Shown piece after piece: positions 19,180 through 50,562 of a stretch of DNA of 64,000 bases. Made by a program: the position numbers and the translations under genes. The notes beneath the pieces were generated by a model that was not told the origin of the DNA, searched no databases, and saw only the letters and a list, made by a program, of their open reading frames with translations. The number at the start of each line of letters is the position of its first letter. The first letter of the stretch is position 1. Source of the DNA: Terriglobia bacterium (GTDB lineage Bacteria > Acidobacteriota > Terriglobia > Terriglobales > Acidobacteriaceae); assembly GCA_020073465.1 (NCBI GenBank), contig JAIQFC010000005.1, positions 186,001-250,000 on the forward strand, in the 5' to 3' direction.

Positions 19180-19634
19180 GGCTGGGCGCTCCTGTCGTGT
19201 GCGGAAAATTTTGGACTAAAGATTCTAACAGGAGTCGTCGGGCTGCAATGCCGTGTCTGTGTGGCGCGGACCTGCCCTGAGTGGAGTCGAAGGGGCCCCG
19301 CCCGCGCTGCCAGCACCACTGCCCATGTAGGGACAGCCGCCCTCGGCTGTCCAGGCCGAGCAAAGCTCGGCTACTGTTTTGGGAAGAGCACGGCTTCCAG
19401 CCGTGCCGTCAGCGCACCAAAATCATTCGCGGCTTTAGCTGTGGTGTCACTAAACCTGCCCACAGGGATATTCATCTGCCTCGAATCGTTCGCGAAACAG
19501 GACGTGACCTCCCATTTGCAGCCTTCGGCATAGCCCGACTCAGGAAGCTCGTACACTGCAGAAGCCCTCGGGCGGGTCAATGAGTGAGATGGCGATATTT
19601 CAACACCTAAGAGTTAAGGGTGGACACAAGGGGC
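19180..19634. other. Intergenic region upstream of purB
   Basis: No gene that I can support lies in these 455 bases. A 69-codon minus-strand frame at 19371-19580 has no recognisable motif and overlaps a repeat hairpin, so I leave it out. The region holds the three-hairpin repeat at 19331-19406. A further phrase (CCTGCCCTGAG...GTCGAAGGGG, 19273-19296) is also found next to the repeat at 24430. Confidence 0.5.
19331..19406. repeat. Three perfect hairpins upstream of purB
   Basis: Three perfect inverted repeats stand in tandem: arms GGACAGCCG/CGGCTGTCC with CCCT loop (19331-19352), arms GCCGAGC/GCTCGGC with AAA loop (19355-19371), and arms GCACGGCT/AGCCGTGC with TCC loop (19388-19406). The first, 22 bases long, is repeated letter for letter at 39051-39072, which shows a dispersed family rather than chance hairpins. 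Confidence 0.8.
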
Positions 19635-24381: not shown

Positions 24382-24541
24382 GTCAGGCGTCATCCTGAGC
24401 GCAGCCGCTTTTCAGGCGGAGCGAAGAGCCTGCCCTGAGCGAAGTCGAAGGGTATCTGGGCGAGCCGCGCACACTGAGTCCGGCACTCCTATACTCGTCA
24501 GGCGTCATCCTGAGCGCAGCCGCTTTTCAGGCGGAGCGAAG
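24382..24541. repeat. 45-bp exact direct repeat (GTCATCCTGA family)
   Basis: The 45 bases at 24382-24426 and 24497-24541 are identical, beginning GTCAGGCGTCATCCTGAGCG and ending GGCGGAGCGAAG. The copies are 115 bp apart in the same orientation. Inside each, CCGCTTTTCAGGCGG forms a small stem. The same element with a few changes is at 38858 and 39812. Exact identity suggests recent duplication or conversion. Confidence 0.9.
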
Positions 24542-39811: not shown

Positions 39812-39885
39812 GTCATCCTGAGCGCAGCCGCTCTTCAGGCGGAGCGAAGAGCCCGCCCTGAGCGAAGCCGAAGGGATCTGGCGTG
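39812..39885. repeat. GTCATCCTGA-type repeat, long form
   Basis: GTCATCCTGAGCGCAGCCGC, TCTTCAGGCGGAGCGAAG, then AGCCCGCCCTGAGCGAAG and GGGATCTGGCGTG. The same long form, with the extra 'GCCCTGAGCGAAG' module, occurs at 24382-24455. Confidence 0.85.
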
Positions 39886-44013: not shown

Positions 44014-44727
44014 TCAGGCCGGCAGCGACTCCGGGGCAATCTCCTCCATGCGACCTCGCTGCAGCCGCAGCACACGATGGCAGCGGCGCGCGAATGACAA
44101 ATTGTGCGTAGCAATGAGGGAGGTGAGCTGGTGCTCGCGATGTAGTCGCGCTATCAATGCGAAAACCGATTCCGCTGTCTGTCCGTCGAGGTCCCCAGTG
44201 GGCTCATCTGCCAGCAACAGCTTCGGCTTGGTGATGAGCGCCCGGGCCAGAGCCACCCGCTGCTGCTCCCCGCCCGAAAGCTCTCCCGAGCGGTGATGCG
44301 CGCGCTGCTCCAGTCCGACCTCGCGCAGCCAGCGTGAAGCTTCTGGCTCCGCCTGCTGCCACGTCTGCTCCCGCAGAAGCAACGGCATGGCAACGTTTTC
44401 TGCCGCCGTAAATTCTGGCAGCAGGTAGTGAAACTGCCAAACGAAGCCCGTTTCCCGGTTGCGAAACGCAGCGGCCTCGTCCTGCGACAACGAACTCAAC
44501 TGCAAGTTGGCGCAGTATACGTCACCCGCGGAAGCGCGATCAAGAGTGCTCAGGATGTGTAACAAGGTACTCTTGCCCGCTCCCGACTCACCCACGATGG
44601 CGAGCATCTCTCCTCGCCTCACTTCAAACGATAAATTCTCAAAGAGCACCAGGTCCGATTCGCCGGACCGGAACACCTTCTTCAATCCAACCACCCGAAG
44701 TAGCGATTCTTGTTCCATTAGATGCAA
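44014..44727 (-). CDS. lolD: Lipoprotein-releasing ABC transporter ATP-binding protein
   Basis: A 237-residue ABC ATPase of the MacB/LolD class. Walker A is GESGAGKST, the signature is LSGGEQQRVALARAL and Walker B is LLLADEPTGDLDG, all intact; the D-loop and switch His (LIATHN) follow. With a LolC/E permease upstream (45052-46461, same strand) it should power release of lipoproteins from the inner membrane. The start may be ATG 44727 or the in-frame ATG at 44718. It is separated from lolC by an unusually long gap of ~325 bases. Confidence 0.92.
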   Translation of the reverse strand: MHLMEQESLLRVVGLKKVFRSGESDLVLFENLSFEVRRGEMLAIVGESGAGKSTLLHILSTLDRASAGDVYCANLQLSSLSQDEAAAFRNRETGFVWQFHYLLPEFTAAENVAMPLLLREQTWQQAEPEASRWLREVGLEQRAHHRSGELSGGEQQRVALARALITKPKLLLADEPTGDLDGQTAESVFALIARLHREHQLTSLIATHNLSFARRCHRVLRLQRGRMEEIAPESLPA

Positions 44728-45051: not shown

Positions 45052-46461
45052 CTATTCATATCGCAGCGCCTCCGCCGGCAGAATCCGCGACGCCGACCAC
45101 GACGGATACAGCGTCGCCACAAACGACACTCCCACCGCCACCAGCGCCACCAGCGCCCCGTCGATCGCGCGCGGAGCAAACGGAACGTAATCAATGGAAT
45201 AGACCTCGGGCGAGAGCGAAATCATGTGATAGTGCCCGCCCGCATAGGACAGCGCATAGCCCAGCACCAGCCCGATCCCCGTCCCGACAAGTCCGATCAG
45301 CACCCCCTGCGCGATGAACACGTTCCGTACCTGGCTCTGGCGCGTACCCATCGACATCAGTACCGCGATGTCCTTGGTCTTCTCCATCACCAGCATGATC
45401 AGCGAGATCAGAATGTTGAGCGCCGCCACGAACACGATCAGCCCAATCGTGATGAACGTCACCACACGCTCCAGCCGCAAAGCTCGGAACAGAGCCTTGT
45501 TCTGCTCCATCCAGTTGGTCGCCATGAACCCCTTGCCCGCCGCGCCTTCCAGATCGTGCGAGATGACATCTGCACGGTAGATGTCGTCCACCTTGAACTC
45601 CATCACCGAGATCAGATCGCCCAGCCCAAACAGCCGCTGCGCATCCGACAACCGCGTGAATGCCCACCCGGAGTCGTAATCGAAGAATCCAGAGTTGAAG
45701 ATCCCCACCACACGAAACCGGTTGTACTTCGGCACCATCCCAAACGGCGTCAACTCCCCCTGCGGAGAAGTGACCAGTACGACATCCCCAACGCTGGCCC
45801 CAAGGTTCTCCGCCATGTCCTTCCCCAAGACGATCGGCGACATAGCCGCCACCCGCGCGTGCACTCCCGCGAGCGAGTCAGGAGATTGATCGGCTTCTGT
45901 AGCTGTTGCTTGTGTGGGGCGGACACTCTTGTCCGCCGCCTTTGACTCTGGTCTTGACTCTGCCTGGGTTGTCTTGTGGGGGCGGGTCTCAGACCCGCCC
46001 ATGCCGGGTTGAAAACCCGGCTCGCTGTTGGTCGAATCCTCAAGCCCCTCCGCCGACCCCTGCTTCACCGAATTCAGCAAATCCCCCACCCGCCGCTCAT
46101 ACTTCGGAATCATCCCCTTGAGCACGGCCCCCCGCGCCCGCGGCCCCCGCGAGATCAGCACCTGCTCAAAGATCGCCGGAGCCGCCGCCACTACATGCGG
46201 CTGCTTCGACAAGCGGTCCATCAGGGCAGGCCAGTCCTTGATCCCATCATCCGCAATGCGCTGCAAGCTGATATGCGAGGTCGACCCCAGCAGCCGCTGC
46301 TGCAAGTCCTGCCGAAACCCGTTGTTGATGGCCAGCGCGACGACGAGCGAAGCCACCCCCGCCGCCACCCCGGCGATGGAAATCCCCGTGATGATCCCAA
46401 TAAACGCCTGCCTGCGTTTGGCGCGCAGGTAACGAGTCGCGATGAAGAGTTCGAAGCGCAT
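45052..46461 (-). CDS. lolC: Lipoprotein-releasing ABC transporter permease LolC/E, with repeat-derived insertion
   Basis: 469 residues, some 55-65 longer than usual LolC/LolE. An N-terminal helix (AFIGIITGISIAGVAAGVASLVVALA) and three C-terminal helices (VTFITIGLIVFVAALNILISLIMLV, GVLIGLVGTGIGLVLGYAL, GALVALVAVGVSFVATLYPSWSA) frame the periplasmic MacB-PCD/FtsX domain. The excess lies around residues 130-205, in the periplasmic domain (SVKQGSAEGLEDSTNSEPGF...). This stretch is encoded by bases 45918-46021, where three repeat hairpins were recognised. The reading frame stays open. It should form a complex with LolD (44014-44727). Confidence 0.9.
   Translation of the reverse strand: MRFELFIATRYLRAKRRQAFIGIITGISIAGVAAGVASLVVALAINNGFRQDLQQRLLGSTSHISLQRIADDGIKDWPALMDRLSKQPHVVAAAPAIFEQVLISRGPRARGAVLKGMIPKYERRVGDLLNSVKQGSAEGLEDSTNSEPGFQPGMGGSETRPHKTTQAESRPESKAADKSVRPTQATATEADQSPDSLAGVHARVAAMSPIVLGKDMAENLGASVGDVVLVTSPQGELTPFGMVPKYNRFRVVGIFNSGFFDYDSGWAFTRLSDAQRLFGLGDLISVMEFKVDDIYRADVISHDLEGAAGKGFMATNWMEQNKALFRALRLERVVTFITIGLIVFVAALNILISLIMLVMEKTKDIAVLMSMGTRQSQVRNVFIAQGVLIGLVGTGIGLVLGYALSYAGGHYHMISLSPEVYSIDYVPFAPRAIDGALVALVAVGVSFVATLYPSWSASRILPAEALRYE
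45918..46021. repeat. Three repeat hairpins inside the lolC reading frame
   Basis: GGCGGACA-CTCT-TGTCCGCC (45918-45937), GGGCGGGTCT-C-AGACCCGCCC (45980-46000) and GCCGGGTT-GAA-AACCCGGC (46003-46021). The first hairpin and ~20 flanking bases (TGTGTGGGGC before, TTTGACTCTG after) match the intergenic element at 49841-49870 almost base for base. The element is therefore a dispersed repeat sitting in coding sequence. Confidence 0.85.
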
Positions 46462-49790: not shown

Positions 49791-50562
49791 GCACCGATTC
49801 TAGCCTGCTGCCTTCGCGCACGTCGTTTGAGATGCGGCACGTGTGGGGCGGACACTCCTGTCCGCCGCTTTTGACTCTGACCTTGAACCCGGCGGTTGGG
49901 CAACACTTTCTCCTTATCTGCAAAGAAGAAATCAAGTGCGAAAGCGTCGGACAAGAGTGTCCGACCCACACGAGCACCCCCTTTTCGCTTCGCTCCTCGG
50001 AATGACAAGAGAAGGACAAGACAAGGAGGCATGGCCAGAAGCGGGCATGGCCTCTCCCCGGCATTTTCCACAGAAAATTCGCGCCGTTGTGACATCTGAC
50101 CTTGTCGTCCACAGCCGTGCTCCCTTTAATCTGGGAATGTAGGTGCCGGATGCACAGCCGCGCGGTCCTAGGAAACCCCCGGCCCCCGCAACCTCCCCAC
50201 GTGAGTGAGGGACAGTGGGGCATCTGACTCAAGGCGCTTCAGATCGGCTACCCTGGTTAGCCCGGGGCTGGCGCCTGTTGTTGGAGGTGATCACTTCCAA
50301 GCTAACGATTAAACAAGGGAGAGCAGCCAGAAAAGCTGCAAAGAGCATGTCAGGAATCTGCTGACGAAATCAAAGAGGAAACAGAAGCAATAGGAATGAT
50401 GAAAACGCATCGCCGCCAGCCACTCGAATTCGCACAGCAGTCCTCGACAGCCCTCCACCCCACACCCTTCCCGATACTTTTCCGCCCGTCCATGTTCCTT
50501 CGAATGTCCTCCCCCACGTACGCCCTATACCCGAATCCACTCAGGGCTGCGATAATGTAAAA
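49791..50562. other. Long intergenic region upstream of the SulP gene
   Basis: 772 bases, no gene recognised. The left third is the inverted-repeat element at 49841-49975. The middle has GC-rich text without motif. Near 50310-50360 a small stem (GCAGC...GCTGC) and a TCAG...CTGA stem stand before the SulP start. These could form an RNA leader, but match no riboswitch consensus I know. Confidence 0.5.
49841..49975. repeat. BIME-like pair of inverted repeat modules
   Basis: The module GTGTGGGGCGGACACTCCTG...CCGCC (hairpin 49847-49866) is followed ~80 bases later by the same module in reverse orientation (GTCGGACAAGAGTGTCCGAC, then CCACACGAG, 49949-49978). The first module with its TTTGACTCTG flank also sits inside lolC. 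Pairs of inverted REP modules are the form known as BIMEs in other bacteria. Confidence 0.8.

Follow-up and report, generated by a model that had tools for sequence, protein, structure and literature searches.

RAYT-type REP hairpins and a nested 24-bp element were probably gained and lost repeatedly in a tolerant linker of an acidobacterial LolC/F-type permease

A lolC-type gene that carries three hairpins within an unbroken reading frame raises the question of how such sequence came to lie inside the gene of an important lipoprotein-export protein, and whether it arrived there once or many times. The gene lies in a 64,000-nucleotide stretch of DNA, here called the window, from a 5.9 Mb draft genome in 67 contigs (G000); among named relatives, the nearest are MAGs with the titles Candidatus Sulfotelmatobacter, Acidobacteriaceae, Acidobacteria or Terriglobia. 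The host gene and its neighbour are as follows:

45052..46461, minus strand: lolC/E-type (LolF-like) permease gene, host of the insertions, 469 aa, frame open
44014..44727, minus strand: lolD-type ATPase gene, next downstream, on the same strand as lolC; 270.2 bits against TIGR02211 (cut-off 307.75)

The permease has the fold, the FtsX and MacB_PCD Pfam domains (both over their cut-offs) and the LolD gene alongside that mark LolC/E/F permeases, and its fold and domain order are those of LolC, LolE and LolF (PDB 7arh, 9w37; PMC10865981). A profile search of solved structures places LolF at the top with LolE and LolC next, and a Foldseek search with the protein model gives LolE and LolC as top matches. 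Against TIGR02212 the protein matches in two stretches, the better beginning at residue 209, and its 347.3 bits lie below the curated cut-off of 362.45 that defines membership; the lolD-type neighbour also scores under its own cut-off (TIGR02211). Because a search of the genome with this gene gives no other full-length match (E <= 0.001; the 28 other matches are partial), its product is, judged from sequence, probably a LolF-like homodimer subunit.

The initial annotation had described a three-hairpin repeat within this gene, its frame kept open, with a first unit and flanks that match an intergenic element at 49841. The hairpins and the two arms of that intergenic element are:

45912..45937, plus strand: REP unit 1, with a GTGTGG head (45912-45917) and a stem-loop (45918-45937) of 8-bp stem
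45938..45957, plus strand: 3' tail of unit 1, GCCTTTGACTCTGGTCTTGA, a TTTGAC/A tail common to the 49841 copy
45980..46000, plus strand: hairpin unit 2, 9-bp stem, with GTGG at 45976-45979 and the predicted peptide GGSETRPH
46003..46021, plus strand: hairpin unit 3, GCCGGGTTGAAAACCCGGC, 8-bp stem
49841..49866, plus strand: intergenic REP copy from the repeat search of the genome, left arm of an inverted pair
49946..49971, minus strand: right arm of that inverted pair, an intergenic REP copy whose stem differs by a compensated change

All three hairpins are present and the 469-aa frame runs open through the array, which spans 110 bp (45912-46021), or about 37 codons. Unit 1 reads GTGTGG and then GGCGGACA-CTCT-TGTCCGCC, the letters of head and stem overlapping; read antisense in the lolC frame it has the predicted translation ADKSVRPT. 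Its 26 nt hold no stop codon in any of the six frames, and three of the six frames are open across the array. The likeness to 49841 holds as described (84% over 57 nt, 45901-45957 against 49830-49886) and extends beyond the hairpin, mainly 3' into the tail. Against 100 dinucleotide shuffles of the window, scored as mean matches per unit, unit 1 has three matches in the window (shuffle mean 0.00), unit 2 one (0.00) and unit 3 two, these being the two strands of one place (0.06, with one of the 100 shuffles reaching two). The idea of the whole array as a repeat stands for unit 1 and falls for unit 2, which is nearly single-copy in the genome: it has one exact place and three at 2-3 mismatches, the reversed control giving three per strand, so that beyond its own locus its matches stay at about the control level and it was rejected as an abundant repeat. 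Unit 2 does resemble a GTGTGG-headed sequence, GACCGGGTCTCAGACCCGGTC, at RAYT locus L274. Among the three hairpins, membership of the 49841 family is limited to unit 1.

That family has 53 copies in the genome at up to three mismatches, against none for the reversed control, a high copy number of the kind that marks REPs yet a modest one, since REPs usually exceed 100 copies per genome (PMC2817692). Eight pairs of copies lie within 250 bp of each other and seven of these are inverted, as in REPs; the TTTGAC/A tail follows 11 of the 53 copies on the 3' side and none on the 5' side. Similar hairpins with the unit-1 core occur in 40 of 45 genomes of the genus (G000 among them), GCGGGC variants of the REP pattern in 42 and a separate pattern, family C, in 44. 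Across the genus, changes in the first stem pairs of unit 1 are compensated (G-C, T-A, A-T, C-G), so pairing has been kept across subfamilies. REPs are defined by a GT(A/G)G head beside a short palindrome (PMC2817692); with GTGTGG next to an 8-bp stem, unit 1 is on its sequence a REP with a GTGG-type head.

REPs of this kind are associated with tyrosine transposases known as RAYTs (Nunvar et al. 2010, PMC2817692; Di Nocera et al. 2013, PMC3733652), and the same association is seen in this genus. A search of the 45 genomes with one RAYT-like protein of G000 gave matches in 21, from which 30 loci were fetched. At 19 of these a GTGT[AG]G-headed hairpin lies within 600 bp of the match, on both sides at 11, and the other 11 loci have no tagged hairpin within that distance; within the same loci there are 35 such hairpins in 45.6 kb near the matches vs 4 in 49.0 kb far from them, and the same detector finds 5 in 248 kb of DNA neighbouring lolC. 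A stricter detector gives 16 of 30 on either side, 8 on both, and 29 near vs 3 far, and it misses hairpins that pair down to a 1-nt loop (L248-L250), for which reason the RAYT counts are taken from the other. At L251 the RAYT-flanking element atgctcGTGTGGGTCGGACACTCTTGTCCGACgcttttgact has the same head and core as ttgcttGTGTGGGGCGGACACTCTTGTCCGCCgcctttgact of lolC, a nearly identical tail and a compensated first stem pair, and at L257 and L262 the unit-1 core is present with somewhat variable outer letters; in these sister genomes the REP thus flanks a RAYT, with the first stem pair compensated. All three of the RAYTs that were scanned (L244, L251, L262) pass the model NF047646 REP_Tyr_transpos, at 80.8, 82.7 and 82.1 bits against a cut-off of 80. 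The exact unit-1 stem was not found beside a RAYT of G000 itself among 18 Y1_Tnp matches and L273 (C19:153251 lay outside the check), and the GTGTRG-headed RAYT flanks in that genome have other stems.

Two further families are tied to transposase genes in G000. Family C (GTCTCG...CGAGAC, with a TTCTCG variant) stands on both sides of the Y1 transposase genes L238 and L154 and also beside L149, and family D (GACAGCCGCCTCGGCTGTC) surrounds L237; both families occur in lolC linkers of relatives. The form of family C at L238, L149 and L154 is CCCA-GTCTCG...CGAGAC-TGGGgcacc, the TTCTCG variant being at L154, and the lolC linkers that hold it are those of L038, L040, L041 and L081.

It had also been supposed that repeat elements rarely survive inside essential genes. 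By a codon-score method trained on the long ORFs of the window, 11 of the 53 unit-1 copies lie in ORFs that score as coding on either side of the copy (10 coding genes), 13 in an open ORF with one side scored and 29 in neither; by this method the 53 copies are mostly extragenic, as REPs are, and survival within coding genes is not a rarity in this genome. An earlier test on 150-nt flanks (2 in genes, 20 with coding on one side, 31 neither) was replaced, because neighbouring hairpins fill the flanks and it misjudged even lolC. By Pfam the host genes are MnmE-, xanthine dehydrogenase-, MoeA-, MutM-, YndJ-, UvrC-, nickel insertion protein- and hydantoinase B-like and LolC, together with L106, which has no Pfam match, and the ADKSVRPT/ADRSVRPT frame is used in six of the 11 in-gene copies. 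The MutM-like DNA glycosylase gene (L096, 1290-2240) holds an in-frame inverted pair of REP units that stretches its Pfam domain by about 50 residues. The UvrC-like gene (L116, 713-2725) has its unit-1 copy at residue 401 and, at residues 303-350, another repeat-like insert read CHPEAPFSG...PSARKERGPQDDNE. What catches the eye in lolC is repetition at one site across species, not survival within a gene.

That site is a linker in the periplasmic domain of the permease:

45880..46056, minus strand: hypervariable linker, the landing site, residues 136-194, from the alignment of 56 lolC rows and AlphaFold

In the AlphaFold model, which is mediocre overall (mean pLDDT 62.1, pTM 0.40) and was used for linker disorder alone, residues 129-193 fall under pLDDT 50, mostly at 37-39, without secondary structure, between a predicted helix at 119-129 and a helix and strand at 197-213; the linker is thus predicted to be disordered. 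Pro, Ser, Ala and Glu abound in the linkers, which range from 15 to 69 residues in 54 relatives (median 35; 59 in the window); hairpin-free relatives also possess one, and in LolF about 4 residues separate the two matched stretches where the linker stands in the profile comparison. The initial annotation's 55-65 added residues fit that LolF comparison only, the array being about 37 codons and the linker 59 residues against the relatives' median of 35. Its view of the insertion point as a place where LolC tolerates extra sequence is borne out by a linker that is hypervariable and predicted to be disordered, and by tagged hairpins that, with the detectors used, are confined to it within lolC. 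In the alignment relatives share the site without sharing its sequence, and a conserved functional part of LolC was accordingly rejected as an explanation of the segment. The Hook of E. coli LolC comprises residues 167-179 (PMC10865981), and the matched stretch of that protein starts upstream of it, at residue 144 (profile position 185); counting on without gaps puts the Hook-equivalent region at about residues 233-245 of the permease, with the linker upstream and near in sequence. Eleven of the 15 residues at 232-246 are invariant in 46 aligned sequences. No close empty site was found among the relatives' hypervariable linkers, so a target-site duplication is not definable; IS200-type transposition is not known to leave one.

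The distribution of the hairpins bears on whether the linker received them once or repeatedly. The 56 lolC rows are distinct sequences, that of the window included, aligned from query residue 1 or 2 onwards, with duplicates collapsed and the C-terminal pieces L033 and L086 and the second halves of L034/L083 left out. By the strict detector, the linkers (7.1 kb in all) contain eight GTGT[AG]G hairpins, in 8 of 56 genes with that of the window included; the other 65.5 kb of lolC contains none and the neighbouring DNA (272.6 kb) six. Fisher p is 8.7e-9 against the rest of lolC and 4.7e-10 against the neighbours, computed per base with relatedness ignored. In 48 of the 56 linkers this detector sees no perfect tagged hairpin. 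A looser one finds 10 in nine of 56 linkers and again none outside. Together with the 53 copies against none in the control and the predicted disorder of the linker, this upholds the reading of a mobile repeat family in frame inside lolC. With the linker excluded, a tree of 51 rows (the partial rows L075, L077, L083, L084 and L085 left out) requires 20 changes of the element labels, which were assigned by eye (A1-A6, C, D and six nested-B carriers), and 13 of presence or absence. The window and L054 carry an identical 26-nt unit, and their placement as sisters is rejected (p-AU 1.05e-5). In L083, whose lolC piece is identical to that of L034, the gene is split inside the linker, which may reflect decay or an assembly error; unless it is the latter, an insertion or its later decay can at times break the frame. 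The break, at about 1648-1875, falls at an apparent decayed GTGTAGGGGC-type hairpin.

We consider it likely that RAYT-type REPs, and a 24-bp element nested in them, were repeatedly gained and lost in a tolerant LolC/F linker. The main rival is a single ancestral REP insertion into lolC, diversified by stem-compensating mutation or renewed by gene conversion from other REP copies. It would account for a hairpin that usually sits at one end of the linker, adjoining a conserved SPDSL segment, for the common orientation of seven of the eight tagged linker hairpins (strict detector) and for compensated stem variants that are common across the genus. It sits poorly with the window and L054, whose units are identical while the rest of their linkers differ and which are rejected as sisters, with the opposite orientation of the L059 hairpin, with the occurrence in other relatives of two unrelated families, C and D, and with rows lacking a labelled element that are scattered over the tree. 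On balance we regard the single ancestral insertion as rather unlikely.

A second element is nested in some of the linker hairpins. In the linkers of L038, L047, L053, L066 and L069 (five of five measured) the hairpin carries exactly 24 bp more than that of a relative or reference, the comparison for L047 and L069 being a reference hairpin (window, L016) rather than a sister. The extra sequence is a CCTTCG..GCTCAGGGC-like palindrome that sits inside a hairpin, and its six carriers, these five and L040, whose B-like piece was assigned by eye, need six changes on the tree. The consensus of the palindrome is CCTTCGACTTCGCTCAGGGCAGGC, and three places in the window match the motif:

19274-19293, minus strand: 24-bp-type palindrome, motif match
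24432-24451, minus strand: 24-bp-type palindrome, motif match
39855-39874, minus strand: 24-bp-type palindrome, motif match

Allowing two mismatches, the motif has 91 matches in G000 vs one in the control, and it occurs in all 45 genomes of the genus. Six of 34 copies in G000 lie between complementary flanks; re-paired controls average 1.5 and never exceed 4. Two of these six are at the RAYT gene L237, where the adjoining family D hairpins hold the element in their loops. Gene context, taken for 36 of the 91 matches, gives eight in an open ORF with one side scored and none with both. We take the peptides of the motif to be common in environmental proteins; a description of a 24-bp frame-preserving element was not found in the literature searched. 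We would tentatively entertain the possibility that the linker is a long-lived hot spot with a layered history, in which RAYT-linked REPs land and a frame-neutral, eight-codon element then lands in their hairpins, its 24-bp length having been selected in a partly genic mini-element.

How repeated gain in the linker could leave a working permease may be put as follows. Unit 1 would be a short, non-autonomous palindrome, presumably moved by RAYTs, that was inserted together with further hairpins into the disordered linker of the periplasmic domain; since it is free of stops in six frames (the whole array in three), an insert whose length is a multiple of three would, if translated in the cell, add a hydrophilic, disordered peptide and leave both folded halves and the Hook region undisturbed, presumably without cost. 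Since the linker would accept such events, several REP subfamilies and the nested element could have been gained and lost there over the radiation of the genus.

The hairpins might instead be useful, as mRNA structure that slows ribosomes or stabilises the lolCD transcript, or by a linker length that tunes LolA recruitment. The array as mRNA has a strong predicted fold (-56.3 kcal/mol, z -6.6), from which an effect on lolC mRNA, raised earlier, is possible, and in sequence the linker precedes the Hook-equivalent region at no great distance. Against such use, sequence, family and presence are unconserved in relatives, with perfect stems of at least 7 bp, of any kind, in only 16 of 55 linkers (L083 left out of the stem test), and unit 1 also occurs in unrelated genes, so we judge a function of this sort improbable. 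Chance palindromes in a GC-rich, low-complexity linker, or an assembly artefact, are hardly credible: the genome is a draft in 67 contigs, its named relatives are mostly metagenome assemblies and the linkers are Pro-, Ser-, Ala- and Glu-rich, but shuffled and reversed controls hold no copies, which rules out a chance palindrome, the longest stem in the window's linker is 9 against a mean of 4.9 in 100 shuffles (none as long), and like structures recur in many separate assemblies.

Recurrent gain of REPs and of the nested element, as preferred here, can be set beside several known systems. With REP, BIME and REPIN elements and their RAYTs, those of the linker share the GT(A/G)G head, the short stem-loop, the many copies, the inverted pairs and the RAYT-flanking hairpins. 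GTAG repeats are listed in Proteobacteria, Cyanobacteria, Chloroflexi and the PVC superphylum, and TIR-flanked transposases are described for Acidobacteria (PMC3733652); in contrast to the REPs listed there, the host here belongs to the Acidobacteriota. Intragenic REPs are known, often in DNA-repair genes, and recB of two Xanthomonas species has different REPs at about one site (PMC3733652). The present REPs likewise lie inside reading frames, DNA-repair genes (MutM- and UvrC-like) included; they differ in occupying the linker of a periplasmic transporter, where several families and the nested 24-bp element share one site, followed across many species with a tree test. The RPE of Rickettsia are palindromic repeats of 100-150 bp inside ORFs, in solvent-exposed regions of proteins, for which hot spot and common origin have been debated and a hot spot left possible (PMC3767692). 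Unit 1 is likewise a palindromic element inserted in frame in coding genes, and it works like an RPE without being one: membership is rejected on its GTGTGG head, where RPE end in a CGTC-type tag (PMC3733652), and it has a GTGG-type head and linked transposases. The class 3 repeats of HuH transposases, hairpins of high copy number that adjoin Y1 transposases in Acidobacteria (Solibacter), have the foot CnGA (PMC6006769), whereas the head here is GTGTGG and the RAYTs are of the NF047646 type. In the permease family itself, this group differs from LolF, with its roughly 4 residues, by the extra linker of 15-69. REPs with RAYTs, and their occurrence inside genes, are thus already on record; in the titles and abstract openings searched, no account of such insertions in LolC or in this genus was found, nor one of a recurrent, nested landing site in LolC.

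The lolC genes of this genus may be read as a natural record of where an important lipoprotein-export protein of soil acidobacteria accepts extra sequence. The linker is a site in LolC/F-type proteins that takes foreign sequence near a largely invariant region, which would be useful for tagging, and it draws attention to a 24-bp frame-preserving element; if the layered history is true, the transporter carries a stratified record of mobile-element bursts. The choice between a hot spot and one old insertion, left undecided for Rickettsia in the account cited above (PMC3767692), becomes testable in lolC because dozens of relatives, a trait-free tree, several element families and identifiable transposases are at hand.
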